From IMG/VR virus record IMGVR_UViG_3300031722_000947, positions 1 to 20,421 of that record: DNA of 20,421 nt; one strand, given 5' to 3'. Each line of letters begins with the position of its first letter. The first letter of the stretch is position 1. Position numbers and translations under genes: made by a program. The stretch comes from a virus. Shown in pieces: positions 1,610 through 20,348 of the stretch. The notes beneath the pieces are model-generated. The model was not told the DNA's origin. It searched no databases and saw nothing but the letters and a program-made list of their open reading frames with translations.

Positions 1610-1613
1610 GTCC

Positions 1614-1934: not shown

Positions 1935-1936
1935 GG

Positions 1937-2281: not shown

Positions 2282-2294
2282 AAACCACTCCCTG

Positions 2295-2606: not shown

Positions 2607-4243
2607 AGGATCTCCATATCAGCGGCTGTGAAGTTGCGGCGGCGATCCTCAGCGGTCCAGTTCCTGCGGGTGTCTGGCGCAGACCAGTTGCGGCGAACAT
2701 CTGCAGCACTGCGTGAATGCTTGAGCACATTCATCAAAGGCTGAACGGTCAGGGTGGCGGCAGCTGTGGCAACCGACTCACCATCTGCAGATAGCTGTAC
2801 GGGGCCTGAAAGCGCAGCCGTGGCAGATCCGCTGGAAAGTGCAGCGGCATTCAGATTCACAACCAGCTTGATTGATCCGCCTGCAGCTGCTTGCTCCAAC
2901 GCTGTGGCGCTCAGAGCAACCTGCAGCCAAAGGGTTGTGCCGGCACTGGCTTGGGCCTGAGCAGCGGCGCTGAGTGGTTTACCAACAGCCAGGGCGGAAG
3001 AAGCCTGCGCATTGGCGATCGCAGCAGCCGTCAAAGCGGCAGATCCCCCCAGGCCCGCAGTTGCAACAGCCTGCGCGATCGCGGCGGCGGACAGGTTCAC
3101 GGCCAGGGCCAGTGTGGCACTGGCAGTATCTGAGGATGTGGCATTGGCGCCGAGGCTCACATTGGATCCACCAGCACCGGTGCTAAGGCTTGCCGTTGCC
3201 GCGTCAGATGACTGAGCTGCAGCAGCCAGGCTCTTCGACAAAGCCATTGCTGCCGTCCCCGTGGCAACTGCAACTGCTGACGCGCTGAAGCTGATCGTCA
3301 AGGCAATTTGCCCAAATCCTGAAGCCTGGGCGGATGCGGATGCGGCCAAGGGTACGGTGTGCAACATGCCGGCTGTCGCGCTGTCAACGCTCAAAGCAGA
3401 ACCGGCCAGGCTCACACCATTGAGCAGTGAGGCGGTCGCTGCATCCTGAGCTGTGGCAGATGCAGCAAGGGTGACACTACTGCCGCCAGCGCTGCCAGCA
3501 AATGGAATATTCAACGCTGCGCCGTAGAGCAACGATGGATTGGTTGAAATTGCCGCCACTTCACGGGCACTCAAAGCGGCGGCAAGGTATGCCCAGCCAG
3601 CCATCGCACCCATGAAGCCAGCAACTGCAAAGTCACCAACATTCAAAACCTCATTGCCAGTTAGATATAGCGTAGTCATCGCTGCAGAGCCAGCGAGCAC
3701 GCCATTCACATAGAAGGCAATTGTTGCCCCGTCCCAAGTGACTACCAACGCGTAGGGTGTGTTGGATACTGCCGTGGCCCCGGTTACTTGGACGTTGGTT
3801 CCAGCAGAGGTATAACCAAAAGCTCGGAGAGCACCTCCGGAGGTAGTCTTGATACCGATGCCGGAGCCACTACCTGCGCCAAGACCATTGTCGAAAATTC
3901 CCAACTGGCTATTGAAGGCCGTGGTGGTTCCCAAAGTGCCAAAGAAAACTAGAGTCAGGCCCTTAGCAGGTGACTCCCTTAGAGGGTAAATATTCCGATT
4001 CGCCCCGCCCGTCACACTGGTCCCAATGAGTGCTGATCCGACTTTTGACACAGACTTCTGCACGAGGCTATTGCTGGTCGGGTTCAGACCTGTGACCCTA
4101 TCCATCGGAGAGTCACCGAAGCCGCACGTAATCACCTTTCGAGTAATCGGTATCTCGCCATCAACGGCAACAGGTCCCTGCGGCTGCCGCCCCATAGCGG
4201 CATCGGGATAAAGGTAATCACTGAGGTCAAGAAAGTTGGCCAC
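2603..4243 (-). CDS. LamG-domain phage fibre/decoration protein with Ala-rich repeat array
   Basis: A 546-residue putative virion surface protein. The start is GTG at 4243 after a clear GGAGG. After about 75 residues comes a LamG/concanavalin-like domain (about 90-245): LTLVFFGTLG, YALVVTWDGATIAFYVNG and the typical closing AREVAAISTNPSLLYG. Residues 256-500 are twelve copies of a 20-residue Ala/Ser/Thr-rich unit. The last 46 residues carry a short basic repeat ending in ADMEIL. LamG domains usually bind sugars, which fits host-surface recognition. The Ala-rich array may form a stalk, which is inference. It lies in a run of putative structural genes and is coupled to the adaptor-like gene downstream. 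Confidence 0.75.
   Translation of the reverse strand: MANFLDLSDYLYPDAAMGRQPQGPVAVDGEIPITRKVITCGFGDSPMDRVTGLNPTSNSLVQKSVSKVGSALIGTSVTGGANRNIYPLRESPAKGLTLVFFGTLGTTTAFNSQLGIFDNGLGAGSGSGIGIKTTSGGALRAFGYTSAGTNVQVTGATAVSNTPYALVVTWDGATIAFYVNGVLAGSAAMTTLYLTGNEVLNVGDFAVAGFMGAMAGWAYLAAALSAREVAAISTNPSLLYGAALNIPFAGSAGGSSVTLAASATAQDAATASLLNGVSLAGSALSVDSATAGMLHTVPLAASASAQASGFGQIALTISFSASAVAVATGTAAMALSKSLAAAAQSSDAATASLSTGAGGSNVSLGANATSSDTASATLALAVNLSAAAIAQAVATAGLGGSAALTAAAIANAQASSALAVGKPLSAAAQAQASAGTTLWLQVALSATALEQAAAGGSIKLVVNLNAAALSSGSATAALSGPVQLSADGESVATAAATLTVQPLMNVLKHSRSAADVRRNWSAPDTRRNWTAEDRRRNFTAADMEIL
2606..2710 (-). repeat. C-terminal 9-residue basic repeats of the LamG protein
   Basis: Residues 512-538 are three consecutive nonapeptides, SAADVRRNW, SAPDTRRNW and TAEDRRRNF, followed by a partial fourth (TAAD) and the terminal MEIL. 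The consensus is [ST]AxDxRRN[WF]. The tail is strongly basic and aromatic, unlike the Ala-rich array it follows. It may be a docking tail for the adaptor-like protein encoded immediately downstream; this is inference. Confidence 0.85.
2744..3478 (-). repeat. Twelve 20-residue (60-nt) coding repeats in the LamG protein
   Basis: Reading codons 256-500 of the LamG gene, the protein divides without gaps into twelve units of exactly 20 residues, apart from one five-residue insert (GAGGS) after unit 5. The consensus is roughly x-V-x-L-x-A-x-A-x-A-x-A-x-A-T-A-x-L-x-x. Examples are GVSLAGSALSVDSATAGMLH, AVNLSAAAIAQAVATAGLGG and VVNLNAAALSSGSATAALSG. The period is conserved while the DNA units are diverged, which points to selection on protein structure rather than recent duplication. 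Confidence 0.85.
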
Positions 4244-4255
4244 ACCAGCCTCCTA

Positions 4256-4696
4256 TCAAGCGCCGGGCGACCAAGCCAAATAGCTCAGTATTGCGCCGCT
4301 GTTTATCTGCTGACCGGTTGCATTGTTGAAGATGTAGACATCCGAATCAGCAGGCAATGGCACCTTTTCAACGGCCATGTCAAACGTTGCACCCGTGTTG
4401 GTAGGACCAATCGAAGGGCCAAAGTTGTAAACCAAGTTCGGAAGAAGCATGGCAGACGGTGTCGGTCCAGCGGCTCCCGCCGCAATGCGTGGCACCACAA
4501 TCAATTGCACCGCTCCAGCGGTGGGGGCGGCGCCAAAGGTGACCACGGTCAATCGAAAGTCTGCCAGCAACAAATTGGGCGTGGCTAACCCAGAAACCGT
4601 TATGCGATTGCCTGTGGAGTAAGAGCCAGACGTGATCGCGGCATATGCCGAGAAAGCAACAGCGCCAATCTGATTGCGAACGATGGGTGCAGTCAT
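4256..4696 (-). CDS. Hypothetical phage virion-associated beta-rich protein
   Basis: A 146-residue protein rich in Ala, Gly, Thr and beta-type residues, with no signal peptide or membrane segment. Motifs such as NLVYNFGPSIGP, KVPLPADSDVYIFNNATGQQ and the closing LSYLAWSPGA resemble small conserved proteins found beside phage tail-fibre genes, where they are presumed structural. The ATG at 4696 has GAGGAAGA upstream. The gene ends 12 bases before the LamG gene and begins one base after its neighbour's stop, so it belongs to the same transcription unit. No specific family can be named with confidence; a fibre-tip or baseplate-associated role is inference from context. Confidence 0.7.
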   Translation of the reverse strand: MTAPIVRNQIGAVAFSAYAAITSGSYSTGNRITVSGLATPNLLLADFRLTVVTFGAAPTAGAVQLIVVPRIAAGAAGPTPSAMLLPNLVYNFGPSIGPTNTGATFDMAVEKVPLPADSDVYIFNNATGQQINSGAILSYLAWSPGA

Positions 4697-4697
4697 G

Positions 4698-5129
4698 CTA
4701 TTGCTCTTCCTCGTTCAGAATGGTTGACACAAGGTCTTGCGTGATGACTGGTGGGCCAATGGTCAACGCTTTGAGCGCGTTCACCTGTTCCAGCCCGAAG
4801 CCAGCGATCACCCCATTCGCAGCCCAGGCCTCAAACGTGGCCTGCAGATCTGCATCGTTCAGGTCGATGGACTCAGCCTTCACGGCATATTTGAATTGGG
4901 CGTCGGCAGCAATGGCGTCCAGCAGCGCGTTGCTCACGGCATGCCCAAGTATTGGCAGAAGATTGGAATACCACACCAGCGTGGTTTGCGTCCTTGGAAC
5001 ACTCGCATTCAGGCGGATGGCCAGATCGCGGTCATTGCGGATCGCCAACAGGTTGAGCTCTTCCTGCGTGAGGCCACGATTCAGCCCGAGCGCAGCAAAG
5101 GCAGCGGCTTGCTTTTCTGTCAAAGTCAT
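4698..5129 (-). CDS. Hypothetical phage protein, helical
   Basis: A 143-residue protein, not recognised. It starts MTLTEKQAAAFAALGLNRGL and looks mostly alpha-helical, with a moderately acidic composition and no transmembrane segment. An internal part (SNALLDAIAADAQFKYAVKAESIDL) is regularly amphipathic. The ATG at 5129 overlaps the stop of the papain-like gene by four bases (ATGA), and its own stop lies one base from the next start, so it is translated within the structural cluster. It could be a chaperone or a minor structural partner for a fibre protein; nothing in the sequence decides this. Confidence 0.65.
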   Translation of the reverse strand: MTLTEKQAAAFAALGLNRGLTQEELNLLAIRNDRDLAIRLNASVPRTQTTLVWYSNLLPILGHAVSNALLDAIAADAQFKYAVKAESIDLNDADLQATFEAWAANGVIAGFGLEQVNALKALTIGPPVITQDLVSTILNEEEQ

Positions 5130-5554
5130 CTGTGGTCGTAGCTCTCTTGTGGACTGATACTGAAAACGTCTTCACGCCAGCGATTGCAACCGCCAGCCAA
5201 CAAACATGCCTCCAGAAACTCAGCACACCAAAAGCGCGCTGGATCCTGCCAATGGGCACGCCAGGGAACACCTAGCGCCCCCCAATAGTCGTACCCGGCG
5301 CCTTTCTTCTTCCTGGCTGATTCATACGCCAGCTCTGGATAGGGGCACTCGATCTGCACCACCGTGTGGTGCGGGCAGCGTTCTTTCCAGGCCTCGAAAG
5401 GCGTGGGTTGAACGCCGTACCAGATGCGCGCTTCGTAGACTTCATTGCCTACGATGAGCCCGCAGTGGTTCCAATCCGCATTGCGTGTAGCCAGCCGCCC
5501 AAGCGCGCTTAAGGGGTCTCTGTTTGCGCTATAGACTGCTGACACATAGGGCAT
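5126..5554 (-). CDS. Permuted papain-like (NlpC/P60-clan, YiiX/YebB-type) cysteine hydrolase
   Basis: A 142-residue protein with the layout of a circularly permuted papain-fold hydrolase. An N-terminal histidine strand, WNHCGLIVGNEVYEA, holds H30 and the acidic E41. The nucleophile follows near the C-terminus in FWCAEFLEACLLAGG (C110). In this clan the His comes before the Cys, unlike classical NlpC/P60. Substrates in relatives are peptide or lipid amide bonds, so either cell-wall cleavage during entry or another amidase role is possible. There is no signal peptide. The start overlaps the stop region of the fibre protein gene without an obvious strong ribosome site, suggesting coupled translation. 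It is embedded among putative fibre genes rather than next to the amidase/holin, which favours a virion-borne enzyme. The motif call is good; the function is inferred. Confidence 0.65.
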   Translation of the reverse strand: MPYVSAVYSANRDPLSALGRLATRNADWNHCGLIVGNEVYEARIWYGVQPTPFEAWKERCPHHTVVQIECPYPELAYESARKKKGAGYDYWGALGVPWRAHWQDPARFWCAEFLEACLLAGGCNRWREDVFSISPQESYDHR

Positions 5555-5555
5555 G

Positions 5556-6074
5556 TCAGTTGTCGATCTGGTTGGTCAGCGATCCAGCCGGGAAGCTCAC
5601 CGTGTCCCCGCTGTTGATGGTCTTGCTCACCGTCAGCGCCGTGCACACAAGCAAGTTGCCGGAAGTCACTGCGTCCATCAGACCGATGTACGTCACGGTG
5701 CCCCAGCCCGCACTGGGCGTTGCAAAGTTGATCGCCACGTTGTTACTGGTGGTTCCACCGGTACCGGAGCTGGCCGCAGTGCTGCCTGCCGACTGCGTTC
5801 CGGCCCAGTTGGTCAGGCTGGTGGCCAAGCCGGGGCGGGCATAGCTGCCGCCGCTCACCTCGGTTCCGGCCGCTGAGTCGCTGCAGGCGCTTGTGAACAG
5901 CGCCACATAGATGGTTGTCGGGGGCGTGTAGGTCTGCCCCCGGAAAACAAAATCCGTGAGCTTGTTCTCCAGGTAGTCACTCAGTGCGCCAGCATGCGCT
6001 GCAGGGGCAACGATGCAGATGGCAGACAGCGCCAGCAGGGCGATGGCGGAGACACGTTTAAAGAGGCTTTTCAT
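5556..6074 (-). CDS. Gp80-like phage tail fibre protein with N-terminal signal peptide
   Basis: A 172-residue protein. The body from about residue 29 (GALSDYLENKLTDFVFRGQ, then TTIYVALFTSACSD, GTEVSGGSYARPGL and LTNWAGTQ) matches the pattern of small phage proteins annotated as tail fibre (Gp80-like). Ahead of it is a classical Sec signal peptide: positive MKSLFKR, hydrophobic ALLALSAICIVA and an AHA cleavage motif before residue 29. The ATG at 6074 overlaps the Rz stop (ATGA) and has AAAGG upstream, so the signal peptide is really part of the ORF. An exported fibre is odd, because virions assemble in the cytoplasm. It may act in the periplasm or at the cell surface instead. Confidence 0.75.
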   Translation of the reverse strand: MKSLFKRVSAIALLALSAICIVAPAAHAGALSDYLENKLTDFVFRGQTYTPPTTIYVALFTSACSDSAAGTEVSGGSYARPGLATSLTNWAGTQSAGSTAASSGTGGTTSNNVAINFATPSAGWGTVTYIGLMDAVTSGNLLVCTALTVSKTINSGDTVSFPAGSLTNQIDN

Positions 6075-6694
6075 TGGGGTTTACCTTTCAGGAAATCAAT
6101 CAGGTGTTGGTAGCGGAGTCGGTCATCGGCACAACTTCGGGCGTTGGTGTCGTGGTTGTCCCAGGCGTCTTGGAGGGTGAGGCCGGACGCAGCAGCACAG
6201 GCGCCTGTGGAGGTATCAGCAGATCCGCAGGTACCGGAGGGGACGTCTGCACCTGCGAGGGCTGAGTTCCACATCCAGATAGCGCGGTAAGTGAGCACAG
6301 GGCCAGGATCGGCAGTGCGCGCAGCTTCGCCATCGCCAGATGCTTGAGTACTTGGCGAAGCAACGGCCTGCACATCAACCGTGACGGCGTCACCACCAGG
6401 ACACACATTGCTGCTGCCAACAACAAGAGGCACGCGGTTGCGAGGATCATGGAATTTCCTTTCAAGGTCGGAGTAATTTGTTTTCAGTGCGTCTCTGTCT
6501 TGCTCAAGGGCAGCGACGGCATCGTTGCCGCGTGTGACTTCAGCATCGAATTTCTCTTGAGCCTTCAATGCAGACTTCGCCTGATTTGCCAACCAGGCGT
6601 TGTTGCGGTTGTGGTCGCCCCACCAATAGCTGCCAGCTGCCAACGCCAGCAGAAGCACAGCGCCCGCAATGACCTTTGCCAGGATCTGATTCAT
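6071..6694 (-). CDS. Rz: Rz-like inner-membrane spanin
   Basis: A 207-residue inner-membrane spanin subunit that joins inner and outer membranes to disrupt the envelope at the end of lysis. One N-terminal membrane anchor is visible (VIAGAVLLLALAAGSYWWG, residues 8-26). It is followed by a charged periplasmic coiled coil (ALKAQEKFDAEVTRGNDAVA to about residue 85) and a Cys-containing C-terminal region ending QHLIDFLKGKPQ. A second lysis gene encoding a lipoprotein (Rz1) is embedded in another frame, the hallmark arrangement of Rz/Rz1 pairs. The start at 6694 has AAAGGTGAG upstream and overlaps the holin stop (ATGA). The length is above the usual ~150 residues because of a low-complexity linker rich in Ala, Ser and Asp. 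Confidence 0.88.
   Translation of the reverse strand: MNQILAKVIAGAVLLLALAAGSYWWGDHNRNNAWLANQAKSALKAQEKFDAEVTRGNDAVAALEQDRDALKTNYSDLERKFHDPRNRVPLVVGSSNVCPGGDAVTVDVQAVASPSTQASGDGEAARTADPGPVLTYRAIWMWNSALAGADVPSGTCGSADTSTGACAAASGLTLQDAWDNHDTNARSCADDRLRYQHLIDFLKGKPQ
6100..6333 (-). CDS. Rz1: Rz1-like outer-membrane spanin lipoprotein embedded in Rz
   Basis: A 77-residue protein read in a different frame entirely inside Rz. The ATG at 6333 opens MAKLRALPILALCSLTALSG followed by Cys21, a lipoprotein signal with lipobox LSG-C. The mature part is proline-rich (PSQVQTSPPVPADLLIPPQA), as in known Rz1 proteins, which reach from the outer membrane to the Rz coiled coil. The frame is open upstream to 6465, but those 44 codons would place the signal internally, so the shorter start is chosen. 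Full embedding, lipobox and proline content together make the call firm. Confidence 0.85.
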   Translation of the reverse strand: MAKLRALPILALCSLTALSGCGTQPSQVQTSPPVPADLLIPPQAPVLLRPASPSKTPGTTTTPTPEVVPMTDSATNT

Positions 6695-6906
6695 TGGCTC
6701 ACCTTTGACGGGTTGACCGTGATGGACGTGGAAGAGATAAATCGCAGGGCGGCATTGCCCACCGGCAGTACAAATGCCAGCCAGGCGTACAGGCCACCTG
6801 GCAGCACGTCCTTCAACACGTTGAGCTGGGATTCAGCTGCAGCCGCCATCAGCACGACCAGGTTGAACAGCAGCGTCTTGCTGCGGTACCAGGGCTTGCA
6901 GTTCAT
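6691..6906 (-). CDS. Putative holin, small two-helix membrane protein
   Basis: A 71-residue protein with two predicted membrane helices, LLFNLVVLMAAAAESQL (about 11-27) and LPGGLYAWLAFVLPVGNAAL (about 35-54), joined by a short turn. It starts MNCKPWYRSKTLLF and ends in a polar tail. The pattern WYRSKTL...LP.GNAALR is common in small holin-like proteins beside phage amidases. The ATG at 6906 overlaps the amidase stop (ATGA). The frame extends upstream to 6996, but only inside the amidase coding sequence. A holin would release the cytoplasmic amidase, which lacks its own signal peptide. The role is inferred from size, topology and position. Confidence 0.78.
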   Translation of the reverse strand: MNCKPWYRSKTLLFNLVVLMAAAAESQLNVLKDVLPGGLYAWLAFVLPVGNAALRFISSTSITVNPSKVSQ

Positions 6907-7568
6907 ACGACCCCCCTGAAAACATTCTTGGGATCTGGTGTCATGGCGGTGCTGGTCCAGTCGGCCACGCTGAATCCGGGGCAGGTTTTGAGCCACTCGA
7001 ATGGTTCGATTTTTCCGTCACCGGACTTGTCCGGGCTGAGGTCACGATGTCCACACACGCCGCCATACACGGTGTACCCTGCGGCGTACTGGCCACCGTA
7101 GACGCGTTTGGGCGCAGCCAGTGGGATGCCGTACTCGGCCAGCAGCATCGCAACGATCTTGGAAAGGCTAGCCCATTGCGCAAGGGTGTACTGTCCGTCG
7201 CGCTCAGCACCGCCGACCAAGCAAATGCCCACTGAATTGGCATTGAAGTACTGTGCATGCGCACCGACTTCGTCCAGGCCGCGACCGGTGCACACGTCGC
7301 CATTCAAGTCAATGACATAGTGGTAACCAATGGACGGCAGATTGCTGCTCAGCGCCTTTACAGCTTCAGGGTTGCGATGGAACCCGCGAGCAGCGTGCCA
7401 CTGGTCGATAATTTGCGGCGCATTGAGGTAACCAGGCTGACCAGGCGTTCCCTGGCGCAGCGGCCTACCACTGGGTGTGGCGGAACAATGGATGACGACC
7501 AGATTCACCGCACGACGTGCAGGTGTTTGAGAGGTCGCTTGTGATGGGGTGGTTGTGGTGGTGTCCAT
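6903..7568 (-). CDS. Endolysin, N-acetylmuramoyl-L-alanine amidase (Amidase_2)
   Basis: A 221-residue zinc amidase that would cut the MurNAc-L-Ala bond of peptidoglycan at lysis. The Amidase_2 signature is complete: VVIHCSAT (H27), GYHYVID (H83), VGAHAQ (H104), VCGHRDLSPDK (H174) and KTCPGF (C196). H27, H174 and C196 are the expected zinc ligands. The first 18 residues are a Thr/Gln-rich non-hydrophobic tail, so there is no signal peptide and export depends on the holin that follows. The ATG at 7568 sits directly after a perfect hairpin, with only a CAGGG-type weak ribosome site inside that hairpin. Late, regulated expression from the region upstream is therefore likely. Confidence 0.93.
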   Translation of the reverse strand: MDTTTTTPSQATSQTPARRAVNLVVIHCSATPSGRPLRQGTPGQPGYLNAPQIIDQWHAARGFHRNPEAVKALSSNLPSIGYHYVIDLNGDVCTGRGLDEVGAHAQYFNANSVGICLVGGAERDGQYTLAQWASLSKIVAMLLAEYGIPLAAPKRVYGGQYAAGYTVYGGVCGHRDLSPDKSGDGKIEPFEWLKTCPGFSVADWTSTAMTPDPKNVFRGVV

Positions 7569-7651
7569 GCCCTGAATTCTTCAGGGCATAGGGGGCGGCG
7601 CGCAGTGTGACGCGTGTCACCCGCTACGGGTGATGGCATGAATTGTCGAAT
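7569..7651 (-). promoter_or_regulatory. Lysis-operon leader with hairpin and interleaved dyads
   Basis: These 83 non-coding bases separate the exported coiled-coil gene from the amidase. Immediately before the amidase ATG is a perfect inverted repeat, GCCCTGAA-TTC-TTCAGGGC (7569-7587), which buries the only purine-rich ribosome-site candidate. Further upstream are two overlapping dyads: GTGAC-GCGT-GTCAC (7607-7620) and TCACCCG-CTA-CGGGTGA (7617-7633). No U-run follows any of them, so they are weak as intrinsic terminators. They could be an operator for a late activator and a translation-controlling hairpin. The structures are seen directly; the roles are inferred. Confidence 0.6.
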
Positions 7652-8224
7652 CTAGCGTGTCCATGCAACGACTCTGCCATTCATAGCTTGAATTATGTAA
7701 CCTGATCCTTCATAAGTAGTTACGACACCGTCTGTTCGATTGATCTGTCCAATTTCATCTACCTGCGCTACACACAGCTGAAATCGTGTAACAGTCTGGC
7801 CGATCATCGGGCGACGAAAGTCGGCCCCGCATTGCTTTTTAAGTTGTGCAGTTACACGTCGCTCTTTAGCTTCCTGCAGTTTCTCTTCTTTTGCCTCCTG
7901 TTCTGCAAGTACTTTTTGTTTTTGCAAATCAAGTTCATTGCGATTCTCATTAGCTTGTTTTTCTGCAGCCAAACTATCGGCGCGAACCCTCTCTTGCGCG
8001 AGCAGTTCTTGTCGTTGAGCATTAAGACGCTCCTGCACCTTCTTTTGGTGTGCGGCCTCATCAGCCTCATCATCCGCTTTCAACTTTCGAAAGAAGTTGC
8101 AATCCCGCTCATTCATGTCGCGGCCGTCGCGCCATTTACAGTTCACCGTGTCGTTGTAGTTTGGCTGAGCGTTGCCCGAGCCAGCCAATAAAAATGCTAT
8201 GAGTGTTAACGCAACTTTTTTCAT
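7652..8224 (-). CDS. Exported coiled-coil protein coupled to the repressor (possible moron)
   Basis: A 190-residue protein with a signal peptide (MKKVALTLIAFLLAGSGNAQ). A highly charged coiled coil spans about residues 45-128 (AAHQKKVQERLNAQRQELL, ELDLQKQKVLAEQEAKEEKL). A C-terminal globular part contains IGQTVTRFQLC, QINRT, TYEGSGYIIQ and a final NGRVVAW, loosely reminiscent of small SmpA/BamE-like periplasmic domains. Four cysteines lie outside the signal region (about C29, C42, C132, C151). The start overlaps the repressor stop (ATGA) and has a strong GGAGGTGAG, so it should be made whenever the repressor is, i.e. in the lysogen. The DNA is visibly AT-richer than its neighbours. Not recognised as a named family; a lysogenic-conversion role is inference. 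Confidence 0.78.
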   Translation of the reverse strand: MKKVALTLIAFLLAGSGNAQPNYNDTVNCKWRDGRDMNERDCNFFRKLKADDEADEAAHQKKVQERLNAQRQELLAQERVRADSLAAEKQANENRNELDLQKQKVLAEQEAKEEKLQEAKERRVTAQLKKQCGADFRRPMIGQTVTRFQLCVAQVDEIGQINRTDGVVTTYEGSGYIIQAMNGRVVAWTR

Positions 8225-8976
8225 CGCTCACCTCCAATCCAAATAATCTTCCCCACTAGCCTGACCTGATCAATCGCGCCTGGCTTTACTTCTTCCGCAG
8301 GCCATTCTGGATTATCCGAACAGATCCGCAGGCCACCATCAACCAACGGCATCAACCGTTTACATCGGGACTCGCCCCCATAGTCGATCACGTACATGCC
8401 CTCTGACAGCTTGAGCTGCTCCGATGTGTCCACTAGTAATATGTCCCCATCCCGCACGGTTGGCTCCATTGATCGGCCACGCGCTGAGATGACTCTGAGT
8501 TTTCCCGGTATGAGCCCCTTTCTCTCAATCCAAGAACGCCTGAACGCAAACCGACCAATTTCAATTTCTTCTTCAACCATTTGACCAGCACCTGCGCTAG
8601 TTCGAACGTTGAGCTGCGGCACAAACAAAAAGTCGCTGGATGGATCCGTTGACCGTTCTTGTTCCTGCTTTTCCTCCGTTCGGCTTATTTGTTTCTCTCT
8701 TCCGGGAAAAAAATTTGATGGTTCCTCTTCATCTAGGTAGCGCCACCTGGTGAACCACTCTACGGGTCTTCCAGAAAGTTCACTCACTTTCATGAGCTGG
8801 CTGCTCGGTATCTTCCCGCGCTTTCTCCAGGTCCTAACCGTTTCAGGTTGAACCTCCATTTTCCTCATCCAGTCGGCAGGCACACGTGCATGCAAGGCCG
8901 ACGCTATGCGCTCTATCACCTGATCTACAGAGGGTGCCTCCCCGACTCCGTGTACGTCGGTCAGTAATTTTTTCAT
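8221..8976 (-). CDS. CI-like phage repressor with S24 (LexA-type) autocleavage domain
   Basis: A 251-residue lysogeny repressor. The N-terminal CI-type helix-turn-helix (about 15-75) includes VIERIASALHARVPADWM, VQPETVRTWRKRGKIPSSQL and SGRPVEWF. An acidic, low-complexity linker follows. The C-terminal peptidase S24 domain has an Ala-Gly cleavage region, TSAGAGQ (A128-G129 or A130-G131), the catalytic serine in RGRSMEPTVRDGDILLVD (S169) and the catalytic lysine in SRCKRL (K206). SOS-induced RecA-stimulated self-cleavage is the known behaviour of such repressors, so this phage is probably DNA-damage inducible. The ATG at 8976 follows AGAGGG. It is divergent from ner, with three operator-like dyads between them. 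Confidence 0.92.
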   Translation of the reverse strand: MKKLLTDVHGVGEAPSVDQVIERIASALHARVPADWMRKMEVQPETVRTWRKRGKIPSSQLMKVSELSGRPVEWFTRWRYLDEEEPSNFFPGREKQISRTEEKQEQERSTDPSSDFLFVPQLNVRTSAGAGQMVEEEIEIGRFAFRRSWIERKGLIPGKLRVISARGRSMEPTVRDGDILLVDTSEQLKLSEGMYVIDYGGESRCKRLMPLVDGGLRICSDNPEWPAEEVKPGAIDQVRLVGKIIWIGGER

Positions 8977-9062
8977 AAGCCCTCTTGCTGGTGGTTCAAA
9001 ATGAACCTAGAATACGGTTCAGCTTGAAACGTTTCTTTCTGAACCACAAATTTAACACCGAA
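8977..9062. promoter_or_regulatory. Divergent early/lysogenic control region with three operators
   Basis: These 86 bases lie between the repressor and ner starts. They contain three dyads fitting GGTTCA-N3-TGAACC: 8993-9007 is perfect (GGTTCA-AAA-TGAACC), 9016-9030 has one mismatch (GGTTCA-GCT-TGAAAC) and 9031-9045 has two (GTTTCT-TTC-TGAACC). Their first bases are 23 and 15 apart. They probably bind the repressor, Ner or both. Rightward promoter elements are uncertain: TTGAAA at 9024-9029 could be a -35, but the resulting -10 is poor. For the leftward direction TATTCT (complement of 9009-9014) could be a -10. The ner ATG has no clear ribosome site, so its message might be nearly leaderless. 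Confidence 0.8.
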
Positions 9063-9296
9063 ATGCATCCAGAACAAATAAAGGCTGAAATCCGCATGAA
9101 GGGCACCACGCCTGCAGCGATTGCCGATGATTTGCATCTGTCTCGGATGACGGTAAGTAACGTCATTCATGGCCGAATTACTTCACGACGTGTAGCAGAT
9201 GCAATCTCCAGCGTGATCAAAAAGCCGGTTCATTCGCTTTGGCCGGGTCGTTATGAAACGGTAGTTCGTGTCGGATTGAAACGGAGGGGCGCATGA
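9063..9296 (+). CDS. ner: Ner-like transcriptional regulator
   Basis: A 77-residue DNA-binding protein. It opens MHPEQIKAEIRMKGTTPAAI, the family-typical Ner/Nlp start, with a helix-turn-helix in AAIADDLHLSRMTVSNVIHG (about 18-38) and KPVHSLWPGRY at the end, a conserved Ner-type closing motif. Ner of Mu turns down early and repressor transcription after induction. The frame is open to 8985, but that extension crosses the operators and has no family similarity, so ATG 9063 is preferred despite lacking a clear ribosome site. It is the first gene of the early operon and overlaps the next gene by ATGA. Confidence 0.85.
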   Translation: MHPEQIKAEIRMKGTTPAAIADDLHLSRMTVSNVIHGRITSRRVADAISSVIKKPVHSLWPGRYETVVRVGLKRRGA

Positions 9297-9610
9297 AACC
9301 CCATCTCAAGCTGCTCGGTTCCGGAAAATTAGTTTTGCTTAACGAAGGCATTTCAGGCTTGTCTGAGCAACAGACCAGGAAACGCATTCGTGAACGTCAT
9401 GGATCGTTGAGAGCTTTCTCCATCCGATTCGGGCTTGACTACTCGGCACTCTTGCTCTCCCTGACCCCCCACAGCACAAAGTTTGCCGGTCGTGTTGCTG
9501 ATACGCGCCGCATGCTGGGCCTGCCTTCCAACCCAACTGCCAGGAACGTGTCCCTTGCGTTGACCCATGCACGGCGGCGTGGCGAGACATTGGCGAGGGC
9601 CGCATCATGA
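9293..9610 (+). CDS. Small early protein, basic, possible HTH
   Basis: A 105-residue basic protein, not assigned to a named family. The central part, GSLRAFSIRFGLDYSALLLS, could form a helix-turn-helix, and the C-terminus is Arg-rich (THARRRGETLARAAS). The ATG at 9293 overlaps the ner stop (ATGA) and has GGAGGGG upstream. The gene's own end overlaps the transposase start in the same way. Genes in this slot of Mu-like phages are often small DNA-binding proteins; a regulatory or transposition-accessory role is inference. Confidence 0.72.
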   Translation: MKPHLKLLGSGKLVLLNEGISGLSEQQTRKRIRERHGSLRAFSIRFGLDYSALLLSLTPHSTKFAGRVADTRRMLGLPSNPTARNVSLALTHARRRGETLARAAS

Positions 9611-11736
9611 CGTGGGCCACCGCAAAACAGCTCGCTGGTCTTCCAGGCTTTCCTTCGAGTGAGCGTCGTGCACAAGAAGCCGCCAAACGTGCTGGCTTAC
9701 CGACTCGCCCACGTTCTGGCCGTGGTGGTGGACTTGAGTATTCAGTGGAGTCCCTTCCTCCAGCTGCGCGCATGGAATGGGCTGCAAGGTTTGCAGCAGC
9801 CAATGACGACGCTTCGCCCAAGGGCTCAATTGCCACCCTCACACAATCCAGAGCCAACTCCACACGGGAGGCCGCTTTGGTTACCGGCTGGCGCAAGGAC
9901 CGCCAAGACGCCATCGCCCGCGTGCTGATTGTGTTTCAGCGGTTCTGGCAAGGCTTCGGCGGGCAGGTCACACCAGCGCTTCATGCCTTCTGCGCCCAAT
10001 GGAATGCGTCCAAACTGGAAGTTGACGCGGGCTTACGACTTCAATTCCCAACGTTGACGTTCACCACAACGCGCCGCTGGTATGTTGGTGTGCAGGAGCG
10101 TGGCCTTTCGTCTATCACTCCACCAGAGCGTGCACGTAAGGGGCAGTATTCAGCACTTACAGGTGAGGTCGGAACAGCCATGCTGGCAATGCTGATTCAG
10201 CAACCACATCTTTCTGCCCAAGCGCTGTATGAGGCGCTTCAAACCCAGTCTTTAGACCTGCCCAGCATATGGTCATTCCGTCGCGCACTGGCCTACTGGA
10301 AACAGCAGAACGCTCAGCTCTTTGAAGCGGCCATCAACCCGGACGGCTGGCGCAACAAGTACATGTCGGCAGCGGGCAGCTACAGCGAAGGCATCACCCG
10401 CCCCAATCAGAAGTGGGAAATGGACAGCACGGTGGGAGACATCATGCTGGCCGACAACTGCCGCCATCACATCGTGGGCGTCATCGATGTGTACACGCGC
10501 CGTCGCTTGTTCATCATCACGCGCACCAGCCGGGCCAACGCCATCATGAGCTTGATCCGTATGGCTATCCAACTGTGGGGTGTGCCCGAGTCGATCAAGA
10601 CCGACAACGGAGCCGACTACGTGGCCCAGGTGCTGGAGACCGCGTTGCTCGGGCTTTCGATCGACCACCCTCTTTGCGCGCCCTTTAGCCCGCACCAAAA
10701 GCCACACATTGAGCGCGCCATCGGCTCACTGATGCATCAGCTATTTGAGCAGCTGGACGGATTCATAGGTCACAGCGTCGCCGATCGCAAGGGCATTGAA
10801 TCGCGCAAGGGCTTTGCCGAGCGCATCCTGAAGGACAAGACTTTCACGGTCGATATGCGCCTGTCACCTGAACAGGTGCAGGGCGGGCTCAACACGTTCT
10901 GCACCCGCATGGACAGCAAGCCGCGTGACTACCTGGGCGGTAAATCACCGCTGCAGATGGCAAAGGGCTTTACTGCCAAGACCATCAGCGAGCGCGCCCT
11001 GGACATATTGCTGGCGCCCAGTGCCGGGTCTGGTCTGCGCACCATCGGCAAGAAGGGTATCAAGATCGCTGGCGGCTTCTACAACCATGCGCACCTCGGC
11101 GGCATGGAGGGCACACAGGTGCAGGTCAAGGTGGACGATTCCAACCTGGGCCGCTGCTGGGTGTTCGACATGGACGGCCAGTTTGTCTGCGAGGCCCTTG
11201 ACTACCAGCGCCTGGGCATCAACAGCGCAGAGGTCGCCGCAGCACGTCGATCGCACCAAGCGATGGTGGTTCGGGAGCAAAAGCGGGAACTGCGCGATGC
11301 CAAGAAGAGCTTCGATACCCGCGCTGCGGTGGCTAGCATCAATCGCATACGCACTGAAGAGGCGGTTGCAGCAGCTCCCAACGTGGTGCTAATCCAGAGC
11401 GCGGCCTCAGTTGCTCCCGTAGAGCACACCAGCCTGTCCATTGCGTCCATTGATGCCGCAGCTGCACCGGTCATTGACCAGGCCCAGGTGGACGCAGCGC
11501 AAGCCGCATTAGTTGCGCGCCTCGCTGAACCCGCGCAGGTCCGCCCCATCGCTGAAACACCGCAGATGCGCTATGCGCGCTGGCTCAAGTTGCAGGAGCG
11601 TGTGCAGCGCAGCGAGGCCTTGGGTGCTGATGACGGCAATTGGTTTGAGGGGTACGCGCAAGGGTCCGAGTGGGCCTCTATGAAGCGCTACTTCGATGTT
11701 TTTGGTCTGTCGGCTGACCAGGTGTTGACCGGCTGA
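9607..11736 (+). CDS. tnpA: Mu-family DDE transposase A
   Basis: A 709-residue transposase for integration and replicative transposition. The N-terminal Mu-type DNA-binding domain (about 3-60) includes WATAKQLAGLPGFPSSERR and GGLEYSVESLPPAAR. The catalytic RNase H-fold core holds D273 (KWEMDSTVG), D333 (IKTDNGADYV) and E369 (KPHIERAIG). That leaves 35 residues between the second Asp and Glu, a classical DD35E spacing. A Mu transposase C-terminal beta-barrel region follows (GGFYNHAHLGGMEGTQVQVK, about 490-540), then an Ala-rich charged tail that in MuA contacts MuB. It sits directly upstream of the ATPase gene. The start overlaps the previous stop by ATGA. Length is close to MuA (663 residues) but somewhat longer at the C-terminus. 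Confidence 0.95.
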   Translation: MTWATAKQLAGLPGFPSSERRAQEAAKRAGLPTRPRSGRGGGLEYSVESLPPAARMEWAARFAAANDDASPKGSIATLTQSRANSTREAALVTGWRKDRQDAIARVLIVFQRFWQGFGGQVTPALHAFCAQWNASKLEVDAGLRLQFPTLTFTTTRRWYVGVQERGLSSITPPERARKGQYSALTGEVGTAMLAMLIQQPHLSAQALYEALQTQSLDLPSIWSFRRALAYWKQQNAQLFEAAINPDGWRNKYMSAAGSYSEGITRPNQKWEMDSTVGDIMLADNCRHHIVGVIDVYTRRRLFIITRTSRANAIMSLIRMAIQLWGVPESIKTDNGADYVAQVLETALLGLSIDHPLCAPFSPHQKPHIERAIGSLMHQLFEQLDGFIGHSVADRKGIESRKGFAERILKDKTFTVDMRLSPEQVQGGLNTFCTRMDSKPRDYLGGKSPLQMAKGFTAKTISERALDILLAPSAGSGLRTIGKKGIKIAGGFYNHAHLGGMEGTQVQVKVDDSNLGRCWVFDMDGQFVCEALDYQRLGINSAEVAAARRSHQAMVVREQKRELRDAKKSFDTRAAVASINRIRTEEAVAAAPNVVLIQSAASVAPVEHTSLSIASIDAAAAPVIDQAQVDAAQAALVARLAEPAQVRPIAETPQMRYARWLKLQERVQRSEALGADDGNWFEGYAQGSEWASMKRYFDVFGLSADQVLTG

Positions 11737-11747
11737 CCAAAAAGGAA

Positions 11748-11778
11748 CGCCCAGCTGCTGTAGGAGGCGGGCTGGGCG
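11748..11778 (+). terminator. Intergenic hairpin between tnpA and tnpB (attenuator-like)
   Basis: A perfect 8-bp inverted repeat CGCCCAGC / GCTGGGCG (11748-11755 and 11771-11778) with a 15-base loop lies in the 76-base gap after tnpA. This is the largest gap in the first half of the early operon. Only GTGTTT follows, not a strong U-run, so termination would be partial. It could lower tnpB and downstream expression relative to tnpA, or stabilise the 3' end of tnpA mRNA. The role is inferred. Confidence 0.5.
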
Positions 11779-11812
11779 GTGTTTAGGTAAACGAAAAAGA
11801 GGATTTGAGTAT

Positions 11813-12559
11813 ATGACAAAGAAAATGGCAACCGCAAGCGGGGGTGGCGTTATTGCCCCCACCAGCAACATTGGCCTGGTACACACGCTGATGGAGCAGC
11901 TCACAGGACGCGCTGCTGGCCTGCCTGGTATCGGTGCCTTCTATGGCCGCTCCGGACTTGGTAAGAGCTTTGGTGCTTCGTACGCCAGCCACCCTGCCGG
12001 GTTCAATGGAATCTATGTCAGCTGCCGCAGCTTTGAGACCAAGAAAAGCTTTGCAGAGCAGATCTGCAAATCCATTGGTATCACCGCCAAGGGCAATATT
12101 CCCTTGATCGTGGACGCGATCGTAGAGGTGCTGTCCATCACTAACCGCCCGCTCATCGTGGATGAGGTGGACTACATCGTGGAGAGCCGCACCCTGGAGC
12201 TGATCCGCGACATACATGATGCCAGCGGTGCCGCGATCCTGTTGATCGGCGAAGAGCATCTTCCTGCAAAGCTCAAGCGCCATGAGCGGTTCGACAACCG
12301 TGTGTTGACCTGGCAGCCCGCCGCAGTCTGCAGCAGCGGAGATTTTGACCTGCTCGCAAAGCAATATGCCGGTGATATTCAGGTATCAGCGGATCTCAAG
12401 AAGCGCGTCCTGGCCGAGACCAACGGGATTACCCGACGCGTGGTGGTCAACCTGGAGAACATCAAACGCTGGTGCGATCGCAAGGGTGTCAAGGAAGCCC
12501 CGGCCAATTGCGACGTGGATCTGTACACAGGCCGCGCTCCTGGAAGGGCAGGTCTGTAA
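11813..12559 (+). CDS. tnpB: MuB-like transposition ATPase (AAA family)
   Basis: A 248-residue AAA ATPase that, in Mu, binds target DNA and activates the transposase while preventing self-insertion. Walker A is GRSGLGKS (45-52) and Walker B LIVDEVDY (114-121). A sensor-like LLIGEEHLPAKL follows, then an Arg-containing ERFDNRVLTWQ and a helical C-terminal domain. It lacks the N-terminal helix-turn-helix of MuB (312 residues) and is shorter, as in BcepMu-type TnpB. The ATG at 11813 has AAGAGGA upstream; a second ATG at 11825 is possible. Its TAA overlaps the next start (TAATG). Position right after tnpA confirms the assignment. Confidence 0.93.
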   Translation: MTKKMATASGGGVIAPTSNIGLVHTLMEQLTGRAAGLPGIGAFYGRSGLGKSFGASYASHPAGFNGIYVSCRSFETKKSFAEQICKSIGITAKGNIPLIVDAIVEVLSITNRPLIVDEVDYIVESRTLELIRDIHDASGAAILLIGEEHLPAKLKRHERFDNRVLTWQPAAVCSSGDFDLLAKQYAGDIQVSADLKKRVLAETNGITRRVVVNLENIKRWCDRKGVKEAPANCDVDLYTGRAPGRAGL

Positions 12560-13188
12560 TGGCAAGAAAACCCATTCACCTGGAGGTGACTGGCATGCTC
12601 ACGCCCCGCGACCGCATGTGGGCCTTCATTCGCAAGGCGCGCAAGGTCACCTGCCAGCAGCTGCAGGAGGGCGTTGGAAGCCCACACCTGAACCTGGAGA
12701 CCATTCAGGATTACCTGCTGGTGCTATGCCGATCGGGATACCTTAAGCAGCTCAACAAGCAGGGCCATGACGCCCGCGTGCGATTTGACGAAGTGCATTT
12801 CGAACTGGTCAAAGACAGCATTGAGGCACCTCGCATAAACAAGGAAGGCGGCAAGGTCACCCAGGGTGTCGTCACGCTGGCTATGTGGCGCGCCATGAAG
12901 GCTATCAAAGAGTTTGACTACAGGGACATTCAGCGCGCTGCCAGCCTGGGCGATGTTTTGCAGGTCTCTGCGCAGACTGCCAAGAGCTACGTTGTACTGC
13001 TGGCACGCGCCGGGTATTTCAAGACGGTACGTGCTGCCAAACCTGGCATCCCTGCGCGCTATCGAATGGTTCGGGATACCGGTCATCACGCGCCTGCCAT
13101 TACACGCCGCAAGTGCGTCTTTGATCGCAACACTGGCGCGTTCACCTGGCAGCAATCAGAACAGGAGGTGTGCGATGGCCTCCAATAA
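12559..13188 (+). CDS. Putative regulator with two winged-helix-like domains
   Basis: A 209-residue protein, not a named family. Two successive segments look alike. TPRDRMWAFIRKARKVTCQQ...LVLCRSGYLKQL (about 14-70) and LAMWRAMKAIKEFDYRDIQR...VVLLARAGYFKTV (about 105-160) each give helix-helix-turn-recognition helix and an 'RSGYLK/RAGYFK' wing entry, suggesting an internal duplication of a winged helix. The C-terminus is basic and Cys-poor. The ATG at 12559 overlaps the tnpB stop by one base and there is an AAGGGCAGG purine stretch upstream. Longer in-frame starts lie inside tnpB. It is likely DNA-binding; the target is unknown. Confidence 0.75.
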   Translation: MARKPIHLEVTGMLTPRDRMWAFIRKARKVTCQQLQEGVGSPHLNLETIQDYLLVLCRSGYLKQLNKQGHDARVRFDEVHFELVKDSIEAPRINKEGGKVTQGVVTLAMWRAMKAIKEFDYRDIQRAASLGDVLQVSAQTAKSYVVLLARAGYFKTVRAAKPGIPARYRMVRDTGHHAPAITRRKCVFDRNTGAFTWQQSEQEVCDGLQ

Positions 13189-13537
13189 AACGCCCGTTGC
13201 CAAGTCACTTCCAGACGATGCGCTCAATGCCCTCATTGAGCTGAAACAGCATTCCACCCAGGCCGATATCGCCCGCCGTATAGGCGTTAGCGAAGGAACT
13301 ATATCGAACGCGCTCAAAGGCCGTTACATCGGCAACGTGGACGCCCTGGCTGAGCGGATCCGTGGGGAGCTGCTCAATCAGACAGTCGCCTGCCCGATCC
13401 TGGGTGAGATCACCTCACGCATGTGCCAGGACGAACGCAAGAAGCCCTTTCACACCGCCAACCCACTGCGTGTGCAGCTATATCGCGCATGCAAGACCTG
13501 CCCCCATAACCAAGCTAATAAAGGAGACCAGTCATGA
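13175..13537 (+). CDS. XRE-type helix-turn-helix protein with Cys motif
   Basis: A 120-residue protein. Residues 25-55 are a helix-turn-helix (STQADIARRIGVSEGTISNA). The C-terminal half is VACPILGEITSRMCQ, then PFHTANPLRVQLYRACKTC and CPHN. This Cys-spaced tail recurs in small phage regulators and may bind metal. The ATG at 13175 has a strong AGGAGG eight bases ahead and overlaps the previous gene by 14 bases. A much longer upstream reading in the frame is a shadow of that gene. Its stop overlaps the next start (ATGA). The function is probably DNA binding within the early operon; the operator is unknown. Confidence 0.75.
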   Translation: MASNKTPVAKSLPDDALNALIELKQHSTQADIARRIGVSEGTISNALKGRYIGNVDALAERIRGELLNQTVACPILGEITSRMCQDERKKPFHTANPLRVQLYRACKTCPHNQANKGDQS

Positions 13538-18472: not shown

Positions 18473-18906
18473 GCAAACTTGCCCGCGATCACCGCAACAG
18501 TGACCTGGCAAAGATCCACGTCGCTAAGAAGCAGCTCGGCCTCACTGATGCCGACTACCGGGCCATGCTTTGGACACAAGGCCGTGTCACCAGCTCCAGT
18601 GAACTGGACCATGCTGGCCGCCAGCGGGTTTTGGATCACCTCAAGGCATGCGGTTTCAAGCCTGTTGCAAGTGACAAGACCAAGCGCCCGTCTAGGCCTA
18701 CACCAGCGCCTGAGAAGATCAAACTCGTGCGCAAAATCCGCGCTCAGCTCATCAGTTTGGATAGGCTTCCCGACACCTATGCGGATGGAATTGCAAGCCA
18801 GATGTTTGGCCTGCAGTTTTACGAATGGGCAACCTGCGAGCAGCTCCAAAAGATCAGCGCAGCGCTCACATATCAGCAGAACAAACAGGGAGCAGCAACG
18901 CGATGA
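18469..18906 (+). CDS. gemA: GemA-like regulatory protein (Mu gp16, DUF1018)
   Basis: A 145-residue protein of the GemA/gp16 (DUF1018) family. The N-terminus LAKIHVAKKQLGLTDADYRA MLW pattern, a middle RVLDHLKACGF, a basic linker (KTKRPSRPTPAPEKIKLV) and a C-terminal QFYEWATCEQLQKISAALTY are all typical. In Mu, GemA modulates host gene expression and DNA topology. It overlaps the mor gene (ATGA), the same gemA-mor adjacency as in Mu and many relatives. Length fits the family. Confidence 0.9.
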   Translation: MSKLARDHRNSDLAKIHVAKKQLGLTDADYRAMLWTQGRVTSSSELDHAGRQRVLDHLKACGFKPVASDKTKRPSRPTPAPEKIKLVRKIRAQLISLDRLPDTYADGIASQMFGLQFYEWATCEQLQKISAALTYQQNKQGAATR

Positions 18907-19343
18907 GCGTCCGCCGCCAAGTCATGCCGCCACGCGAGCAGTACTCCCTTTTTGACACGACGATTCCGCTGCGCGACGTGGAAGAAGTCGACGCGCTTCC
19001 GGCCAGCGCAAAAGAGCTGATTGAGGTCATGGGCCTGGACGCAACCATCGACCTGGTCAAGATGTTTGGCGGCGACGATCTGAAGATTCCAGAGGTGGTA
19101 AATGGCACTTCGCGGATGTGGGAGATCCTGGTTGAAACGGTGGGGCCAGAAGCGGCCGAAAAGTTGGTCAAGCGTTACGCCGGAACCCCTGTTTACATCC
19201 CGGTCTGCCGCATGGCATTATTGGCACACCGCGACCGTGAAATTGCCCGCCGATTTGATGCAGGAGAGGCCTTTGATCTGTTGCGCCGGGAGTTCAAATT
19301 GACCCGTCGACACCTGTATCGTGTATTGAAGAAACCCACTTGA
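18903..19343 (+). CDS. mor: Mor-family middle transcription activator
   Basis: A 146-residue activator of the Mor/C family, which turns on middle (and, in some relatives, late) phage promoters. The central dimerisation part includes LIEVMGLDATIDLVKMFGGD and LKIPEVVN. The C-terminal helix-turn-helix is IARRFDAGEAFDLLRREFKL followed by TRRHLYRVLKK. The ATG at 18903 overlaps the gemA stop; the longer upstream frame is gemA shadow. Its late position in the early operon gives a timed switch. Only one Mor-like gene is in the window, so it may serve the role of both Mor and C; this is inference. Confidence 0.9.
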   Translation: MSVRRQVMPPREQYSLFDTTIPLRDVEEVDALPASAKELIEVMGLDATIDLVKMFGGDDLKIPEVVNGTSRMWEILVETVGPEAAEKLVKRYAGTPVYIPVCRMALLAHRDREIARRFDAGEAFDLLRREFKLTRRHLYRVLKKPT

Positions 19344-19352
19344 TTGGATGCC

Positions 19353-19628
19353 ATGAAACTCGTTAAACCGACAAAGTACTTTGAACTGCCACCGATCACT
19401 CTCGATGCGGATCCGCTAGTGGTTGGCCATGCAAAAGAGATTTTCGAACTGACCGGTGGAACGGATCTGCCACCGCGATCTGAGGTTTTGCAGCCGGACG
19501 GTCAAGTTTTGAAAGCCTGGTGGCCGGACGATGTCCAAGAGATACTTTTAAAACATCCTGCGGTGCTTAAGATCATTGGCGTCGATTTGGCCTCTGAAGT
19601 TGATCCCGTCAATAAAAGCCAGGGTTAG
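19353..19628 (+). CDS. Last gene of the early operon, hypothetical
   Basis: A 91-residue acidic protein, not recognised. It reads MKLVKPTKYFELPPITLDAD, then a helical VVGHAKEIFELTGGTDLPPR, DGQVLKAWWPDDVQEILLKH and a final LKIIGVDLASEVDPVNKS. No clear ribosome site precedes ATG 19353; TTG 19344, directly after the mor stop, is an alternative start adding three residues. The stop codon lies inside a short perfect inverted repeat (AGGGTTAGAACCCT, 19621-19634), just before the intrinsic terminator. Function unknown. Confidence 0.62.
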   Translation: MKLVKPTKYFELPPITLDADPLVVGHAKEIFELTGGTDLPPRSEVLQPDGQVLKAWWPDDVQEILLKHPAVLKIIGVDLASEVDPVNKSQG

Positions 19629-19653
19629 AACCCTCTTTTCAGCCCCCAAAAAC

Positions 19654-19676
19654 GCCCCTTAAATGGGGCTTTTTTT
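19654..19676 (+). terminator. Intrinsic terminator of the early operon
   Basis: GCCCC-TTAAAT-GGGGC (19654-19669) followed by seven T residues. It lies 25 bases after the last early gene and would end the 10.5-kb transcript from the ner promoter before the phage end, keeping early transcription from entering the host gene. The perfect inverted repeat at 19621-19634 just upstream could add a second structure. Confidence 0.88.
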
Positions 19677-19685
19677 CGTCCCAAA

Positions 19686-19843
19686 CGTCCGAGTTAGCGT
19701 CCGAGTTCTGCACAAAAGTTATGCAATTGGCGTCCGAGTTCTCTTTTCTGCCAGGAAACCGCCTAGCGTTGAAACTCCATACAAATCAGTCACTTAGCGA
19801 AACTCGGACGCTCAGTGCGAACTTGGACGGTAGCGTCCGAGTT
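19686..19843. repeat. Six copies of CGTCCGAGTT in direct and inverted orientation
   Basis: Non-coding DNA between the terminator and the phage end carries the 10-mer CGTCCGAGTT at 19686-19695, 19698-19707, 19731-19740 and 19834-19843 on the plus strand. It appears inverted as AACTCGGACG at 19801-19810, and AACTTGGACG (one mismatch) at 19820-19829. The first two are 12 bases apart. The last two form a dyad with a 4-base spacer. Copies are often extended to GCGTCCGAGTTC. Protein-binding sites near the end are likely, for the transposase or a regulator. They are seen directly; the ligand is inferred. Confidence 0.85.
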
Positions 19844-20122
19844 CGACGCTGACCGGAGTGCCGCCCGCTGGTGATCAGATCGGCCAACTATGCCCAAAAA
19901 GCCTGTATTGGCGCGGGGTTACGGTGGTTTCAGAGGGGAGAGCGGGCTGCGGAGACCGACGCGCCAAAACGGCCCAGGAGACGCGATCGGTCCGATGTCC
20001 TTGCGTCCGGTGCTACGATGGCTCCCGATGCCCCATAGGCCCGATTTGCCCCGCAACCCCTTGATTTCATTGGCCCCGGCCCGTTTTGTCCCGGCTCATC
20101 CCGCCCCTTCCCGGATATGCCA
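19844..20122. other. GC-rich phage-end region, no gene seen
   Basis: About 280 bases with no convincing coding sequence. Open frames exist (for example from 19858 and 19890), but their translations have no family character. The frame that leads into gspK is not GspK-like before about 20120. The second half (20020-20107) has diverged repeats of a GGCCCGATTTGCCCC-like element. The phage terminus probably lies at the right edge of this segment. It could also hold the packaging start, as the left end does in Mu; this is inference. Confidence 0.6.
20020..20107. repeat. Diverged ~18-bp end-proximal repeats, candidate transposase sites
   Basis: Two clear copies 40 bases apart are GGCCCGATTTGCCCCGCA (20038-20055) and GGCCCGTTTTGTCCCGGC (20078-20095), which share 14 of 18 positions. 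A related element with a small gap shift is GGCTCCCGATGCCCCATA (20020-20037). A weaker one is GGCTCATCCCGCCCC (20093-20107), and GGTCCGATGTCC (19989-20000) may be a fifth. Multiple diverged sites close to a terminus are what Mu-type transposases bind. Confidence 0.6.
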
Positions 20123-20132
20123 TCCTGTGCGC

Positions 20133-20348
20133 TCGGTCACAGCCGGCATCCGCGAAGGCACGACGGCACAGGTGGATGCCAAGGACTTCAGTGTGGGTAG
20201 CCGCTACTTCGCCGTACGGGGCCGATTGCGCCTGGGTGACTCTGCCGTACAGGAGGTGTCGCTGGTGGAACGCAACGGCACGGTGAGCAAGGTGATCTGG
20301 CGCCAGCGCGAGGCGCTGCATACCGCCACAACGGCTTCCCTACAATGA
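20133..20348 (+). pseudogene. gspK: 3' fragment of type II secretion minor pseudopilin gspK
   Basis: The reading frame ending at TGA 20346-20348 encodes about 71 residues of GspK-like C-terminus: AQVDAKDFSVGSRYFAVRGR, LRLGDSAVQEVSLVERNG and KVIWRQREA. 'S.SRYF.VRGR.RL' with 'V.V.WR.R' at the end is typical of GspK, the large minor pseudopilin that caps the type II secretion pseudopilus. Upstream of roughly 20120 the frame stops resembling GspK and runs into phage-end DNA, so the gene is cut by the prophage. The 5' part would lie beyond the other phage end. The exact junction is uncertain, so the start given is approximate. Confidence 0.7.

Follow-up and report, generated by a model that had tools for sequence, protein, structure and literature searches.

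A candidate transposition enhancer beside the right end of a Mu-like prophage inserted in a host gspK gene

At which base does the phage end where GspK-like coding resumes, and which DNA sites near that end could serve transposition? This question is raised by the right-hand part of a 20421-base virus record (IMGVR_UViG_3300031722_000947), which we analysed over its whole length and call the window; the left junction of the prophage lies outside the record. The original prediction saw here the right end of a Mu-type prophage adjoining resumed gspK coding, and this general picture is borne out by our analysis. We consider it fairly probable that the whole locus is explained as the attR of a Mu-like prophage in gspK together with a candidate enhancer bound by the phage transposase, TnpA.

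The window holds a Mu-like transposable prophage inserted in the host gspK. It contains the early half of the phage, with a rightward arm running from the repressor to the Mor genes and the terminase on a leftward arm, and its gene set comprises a CI/S24 repressor, a Ner-type protein, a transposase, an AAA ATPase, GemA, Mor and a terminase. Several hallmarks of a Mu-like phage are present: a DDE transposase whose N- and C-terminal domains are of the Mu type, accompanied by an AAA partner, genes of the GemA and Mor types, and a terminal CA (TG read inward), which is found by alignment at the right end of the window and at both ends of seven relatives. The helix-turn-helix protein encoded at 12914-13537 matches the N-terminal part of phrog_296 and the AAA protein at 11813-12559 matches its later part, a possible sign that MuB is divided between two genes in this phage. 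Beyond the last phage gene, some 500 bases hold no conserved gene; the next 280 bases are host DNA and include the gspK tail.

The 152-aa ORF at 19890-20348 is a fusion of the phage end with the gspK tail: the 12 GspK homologues compared matched its final portion alone, and its upstream part lacks their GspK core. Alignments with homologues begin at about residue 2-17 of the 68-aa tail. At E 0.001 or better, a match to this tail was found in 116 of 150 genomes from the family to which G008 belongs. GspK-like coding does resume, as had been predicted, and does so at 20142; when we looked in the 12 homologues for an intact gspK containing 20020-20122, none contained that stretch. The gspK product is a minor pseudopilin of type II secretion, and the gene is truncated by the insertion, so that the lysogen may be without a type II secretion system.

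Relatives of this prophage were located through Mor and transposase searches. Over the stretches compared, G002 and G008 carry one and the same prophage, as do G003 and G010, and each such prophage was counted once; the right end of G004 stops at a contig end, short of the terminus, and was excluded from counts needing the terminus. One match to the left-end pattern (L035) was dropped as chance, as it had no second left-end site and no related transposase was found. Wider sampling (the order, the genus of G010, the class and relatives of G175) gave no additional close relative. Among more distant relatives, a search for arrays of the kind described below and for ends gave no array and no convincing ends in G323, G448, G539 and G597, and a search for the array found none in G249, G239 and G022. 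Megablast of the window against phages returned 12 partial matches of 1-2% coverage, and the right end alone had no match in the phages or plasmids searched. Base-exact ends are available for a prophage group without a close match among the deposited phages searched. In the last 900 bases of L034 (from G009), a left-type phage end (TGTAAGCGGACGCGTGG read inward) lies to the right of the early region, so that this prophage differs in the order or the orientation of its arms.

Both junctions were found in seven relatives, with prophages of 38.8-42.5 kb, and all seven have TGTA...CACA ends and a 5-bp duplication (GTGGG, GAAGG, GTTCG, GCAGG, GCTTT, ATCCG and GCTTG). The junction search presupposed TG/CA-type ends and a 5-bp repeat, and the last four duplications were picked by that rule; these four are supported by inward sequence matching at both ends and by agreement with close relatives. 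In G007, the prophage splits a tRNA-Asp(gtc) gene: joining the flanks minus one GTTCG restores the tRNA gene, which neither flank alone contains. This prophage (L025, L026) lies inside the tRNA-Asp gene within a tRNA cluster. The window aligns to the relatives' ends through CGGTCACA at 20134-20141, and the placement of the last phage base at 20141 is strongly supported by this alignment together with the relatives' duplications and the restored tRNA gene. By the same alignment, the target duplication of the window would be GCCGG at 20142-20146, and the left junction of the prophage would be expected to read GCCGG, then TGTAAGCGG. A CA-type terminus with a 5-bp duplication had been anticipated correctly, as the relatives indicate, but at the wrong base and with the wrong target: the CA at 20121-20122 and the TCCTG proposed as target are present as letters, but they lie 19 bases inside the end defined by relatives, which imply a duplication located elsewhere. 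Read in phage orientation, ten flank 5-mers (seven with both sides known, the window and G001 with the right side only, and G009 with the left side only) fit GNNNG in 7/10 cases and CNNNC in 0/10, which would be odd for a strand-symmetric target preference. Target use may be oriented, a post hoc pattern from a small number of flanks.

The repeats of about 18 bp that had been proposed as transposase end sites are indeed present as a pair, 14/18 identical by eye, with one weaker partial copy at 20069-20078, but their match over 18 bases is near chance. In dinucleotide shuffles of 20020-20141, an 18-base pair as good as the repeats appeared in 24 of 300, and a 16-base pair with 14 matches in 2 of 300, so that the claim of an 18-base repeat is near chance and its 16-base core modestly above it. 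Across six aligned right ends, 2/18 and 7/18 columns of the two repeats are invariant, as against 45/60 in the nearby array sites. At the left ends of five close relatives the sites are GGACGC or GGCCGCG and not of the GGCCCG type, and inverted copies of the GGCCCG repeats are absent from them. That these repeats are the transposase end sites, with the terminus at 20122, is hardly credible any longer: the pair exists, but it is weakly conserved, and the ends and duplications of relatives set the terminus at 20141.

Better candidates are found at other positions. In the left ends of the same five close relatives, the GGACGC or GGCCGCG sites lie at 8, 30 and 58-59 bp, and in 4/5 also at 77 bp. 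An exact GGACGC or GGACTCA is found at 8 bp in four of nine right ends, G001 and G008 carry looser versions of it, and GGACGC recurs at 123-134 bp from the terminus in six of the nine; the two most distant relatives have different end sequences. In the window, the corresponding positions are occupied by R1, a degenerate copy of CGGACGCATG, and R2, which reads CGGACGCAAG. Judging by position and conservation, R1 and R2 are likely candidate transposase end sites.

Between R1 and R2 lies a perfect match to WATCARNNNNTTR, which we take to be the IHF consensus. A perfect IHF-type match occurs 86-88 bp from the terminus in five of the nine ends with a known terminus (the window, G008, G175, G254 and G008b) and is absent from this place in G001, G218, G010 and G007. 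The last 460 bp of the nine right ends contain eight perfect matches, five near the terminus and three in the array; shuffled versions averaged 0.15 and never exceeded 2 in 300 rounds, although the shuffles overstate independence, the right ends being related by descent. The whole window has three perfect matches, two of them in the right-end region. In bases 1-4000 of Mu, taken as a control, just one perfect match occurs; it lies at 947, in the c-ner interval.

Table 1. Positions of the phage, host and putative regulatory features of the window
Feature	Position	Strand	Remarks
CI/S24-type repressor	8221..8976	-	without Mu-type winged helix
Operator-like GGTTCA/TGAACC repeats between repressor and Ner	8991..9047	.	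putative function; differ from array
Transposase TnpA	9607..11736	+	domains HTH_Tnp_Mu_1, rve, Mu-transpos_C; N-terminal model matches 1tns
MuB-like AAA transposition protein	11813..12559	+	family matches
Mor-type late activator	18825..19343	+	true start may be internal to frame
Terminator-like hairpin and T run, 3' of last phage gene	19654..19676	+	
Array site 1, CGTCCGAGTT	19686..19695	+	
Array site 2, CGTCCGAGTT	19698..19707	+	
Array site 3, CGTCCGAGTT	19731..19740	+	
Central array IHF-type match, AATCAGTCACTTA	19784..19796	+	
Array site 4, CGTCCGAGTT	19801..19810	-	
Array site 5, CGTCCAAGTT	19820..19829	-	one mismatch
Array site 6, CGTCCGAGTT	19834..19843	+	
R2, candidate inner transposase site, CGGACGCAAG	20000..20009	-	one mismatch to CGGACGCATG; binding inferred
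First 18-bp repeat of original prediction	20038..20055	+	2/18 columns invariant
IHF-type match between R1 and R2, AATCAAGGGGTTG	20054..20066	-	perfect match; also between the two 18-bp repeats
Second 18-bp repeat of original prediction	20078..20095	+	7/18 columns invariant
R1, candidate terminal transposase site, degenerate copy of CGGACGCATG	20117..20141	-	position 8 from terminus in relatives; binding inferred
Right terminus (CA), last phage base 20141	20140..20141	+	alignment to relatives' ends fixed by duplications and G007 tRNA-Asp
Right copy of putative 5-bp target duplication GCCGG	20142..20146	+	5-bp duplication present in 7/7 relatives with both junctions; left copy of this prophage outside record
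Host gspK tail, 68 codons and stop	20142..20348	+	homologue matches and alignment with 12 homologues

The region further contains an array of six sites situated 300-460 bp from the right end and 10 kb from the repressor. These sites form the largest 10-mer family in the region, with six members compared with at most four in 40 shuffles. Invariant columns make up 45/60 of the array sites versus 21/98 of the positions between them. Successive site starts in the window are 12, 33, 70, 19 and 14 bp apart, and the seven other phages with five or six sites agree within 2 bp at each step. An IHF-type match with at most one mismatch lies 16-17 bp before site 4 in 7/8 phages with a five- or six-site array. 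As judged by sequence motif, the array is thus a repeated-site cluster with an internal IHF site, like the Mu enhancer. In a sister lineage (G010, G007 and G004) the array sites read CGTGCGAGTT, so that the two lineages have CGTCCG and CGTGCG types, and position 4 of each of the six sites, and no other column within them, shows a lineage-fixed change. Two distant relatives, whose transposases are 39-40% identical, have three sites reading GCCCGAATT or TTCCGAATT, spaced by 33 and 14 bp and at a distance from the end similar to that of the array.

Which protein could recognize these sites? Residues 1-78 of TnpA are predicted to adopt the winged-helix fold of the enhancer-binding domain of MuA, the best PDB match of the model being 1tns. 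The change of the array in the sister lineage goes in step with two substitutions in the Mu-type enhancer-binding helix of TnpA: R20F and E24A distinguish the two array lineages and fall within predicted helix 19-29. Among the columns invariant in the first lineage, 4/42 in the N-terminal domain and 13/281 elsewhere carry fixed differences (17 in total, R20F and E24A included), a modest N-terminal excess. The array and helix changes probably represent one event on the tree, as the sister lineage comprises three phages of one close lineage.

In the main rival reading, which we regard as unlikely, the array would be a cluster of sites for the Mor-type activator encoded beside it and would serve the control of a promoter instead of transposition. 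The Mor gene is the nearest DNA-binding gene and co-occurs with the array, and Mor remains a rival given that R162S, one of its four lineage-fixed differences, falls in its C-terminal helix-turn-helix. However, no sigma-70-like promoter was found in 19560-20200 (the search covered this promoter type), a terminator-like hairpin precedes the array, and no conserved gene follows it. Moreover, the window has a single copy of the inverted site pair, that of the array, and none in the part of the late arm that it includes. The array could also be bound by the regulator encoded at 12472-13188 or by the helix-turn-helix protein at 12914-13537, or serve partition, packaging or replication. We find this quite improbable: both proteins are conserved across the phage group, and their matches are to regulator or DNA-transposition families, but their lineage-fixed differences are few and mild, in 2/47 and 1/19 invariant columns, respectively (the latter count covering four of the five first-lineage phages).

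An operator of the repressor or of Ner would come to mind from Mu, where operator and enhancer are one element according to the available text of PMC3820752. Here, however, the repressor and Ner have been exchanged among phages that keep the same array, so that phages with one array have unrelated repressors or Ner proteins, and the distance to the repressor also speaks against such a role. In the window, the repeats of the repressor-Ner gap differ from the array, and no IHF-type match occurs there even when one mismatch is allowed; the GGTTCA/TGAACC repeats at 8991-9047 are a likely repressor operator. A cluster that lies near the left end, between c and ner, and doubles as repressor operator, as in Mu, is thus not what we find, and the array is very unlikely to be an operator. 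On balance, the sites and their conservation make it probable, if by no means assured, that the array is a candidate transposition enhancer beside the right end, separate from the repressor operator, unlike in Mu.

If the array is such an enhancer, the right end could work as follows. TnpA would bind both R1, at the terminus, and R2, some 130 bp further in, as their conservation suggests, and IHF would bend the DNA between them at 20054-20066, where its motif lies. The six phased CGTCCGAGTT sites and the second IHF-type match, 200-360 bp further inside, would form the enhancer for the N-terminal winged helix of TnpA. This enhancer would be the third DNA site, gathering the two ends as in Mu. 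The generalization that Mu-like phages of the Burkholderiales have an enhancer uncoupled from the operator, within 460 bp of the right end and with its own IHF bend, that some have a second bend in attR, and that coevolution of sites and helix gives orthogonal pairs, seems to us a proposition that could go either way.

The resemblance to Mu extends to the MuA enhancer-binding fold in TnpA, the AAA partner, the CA ends, the 5-bp duplication (seen in the relatives), the several end sites and the multi-site cluster with an IHF-type match. In the text available from PMC3562280, PMC3362531 and PMC3820752, the Mu enhancer is bound by the N-terminal domain of MuA, lies nearer the left end and is drawn as an operator/enhancer. 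The available parts of PMC3562280 and PMC3820752 place it between c and ner; by contrast, the cluster of the window phage is at the other end, far from a repressor that lacks the DNA-binding domain of the transposase. An enhancer on the right-end side nevertheless fits what the accessible portion of PMC3562280 describes for Mu, where assembly is initiated by interactions of the right end with the enhancer.

By transposase, the nearest named phages (29-36% identity) are Rhodovulum phage RS1 / Rhodobacter phage RC1 and Pseudoalteromonas phage HS6. In RS1 and in HS6 (a circular record) the repressor and transposase lie near the record end, as in Mu, and the array sequences, searched for in HS6 and in positions 1-12000 of RS1, were absent from both. 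BcepMu and KS10 are grouped together as similar systems. According to the text available of PMC2628397, the early region of Burkholderia phage KS10 is inverted with respect to that of Mu, and its end sites are imperfect repeats; it differs in that these are 15-nt repeats and that no flanking duplication was identified, and that text does not mention an enhancer. Tandem end sites have been described in Pseudomonas Mu-like phages (PMC4378225, in part), and in phage Ab30 the enhancer is placed to the right of its repressor gene (PMC5977238, in the portion available). The available portions of PMC2837660 and PMC8541194 add nothing further on enhancer position, and our literature search, with slight coverage of subscription journals, found no title or abstract describing a right-end enhancer. 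In Mu, the roles in transposition and regulation are hard to separate because the enhancer doubles as repressor operator; if our reading is true, an enhancer and an operator 10 kb apart, together with natural variants of site and helix, would make the three-site synapse testable with lysogeny control untouched.
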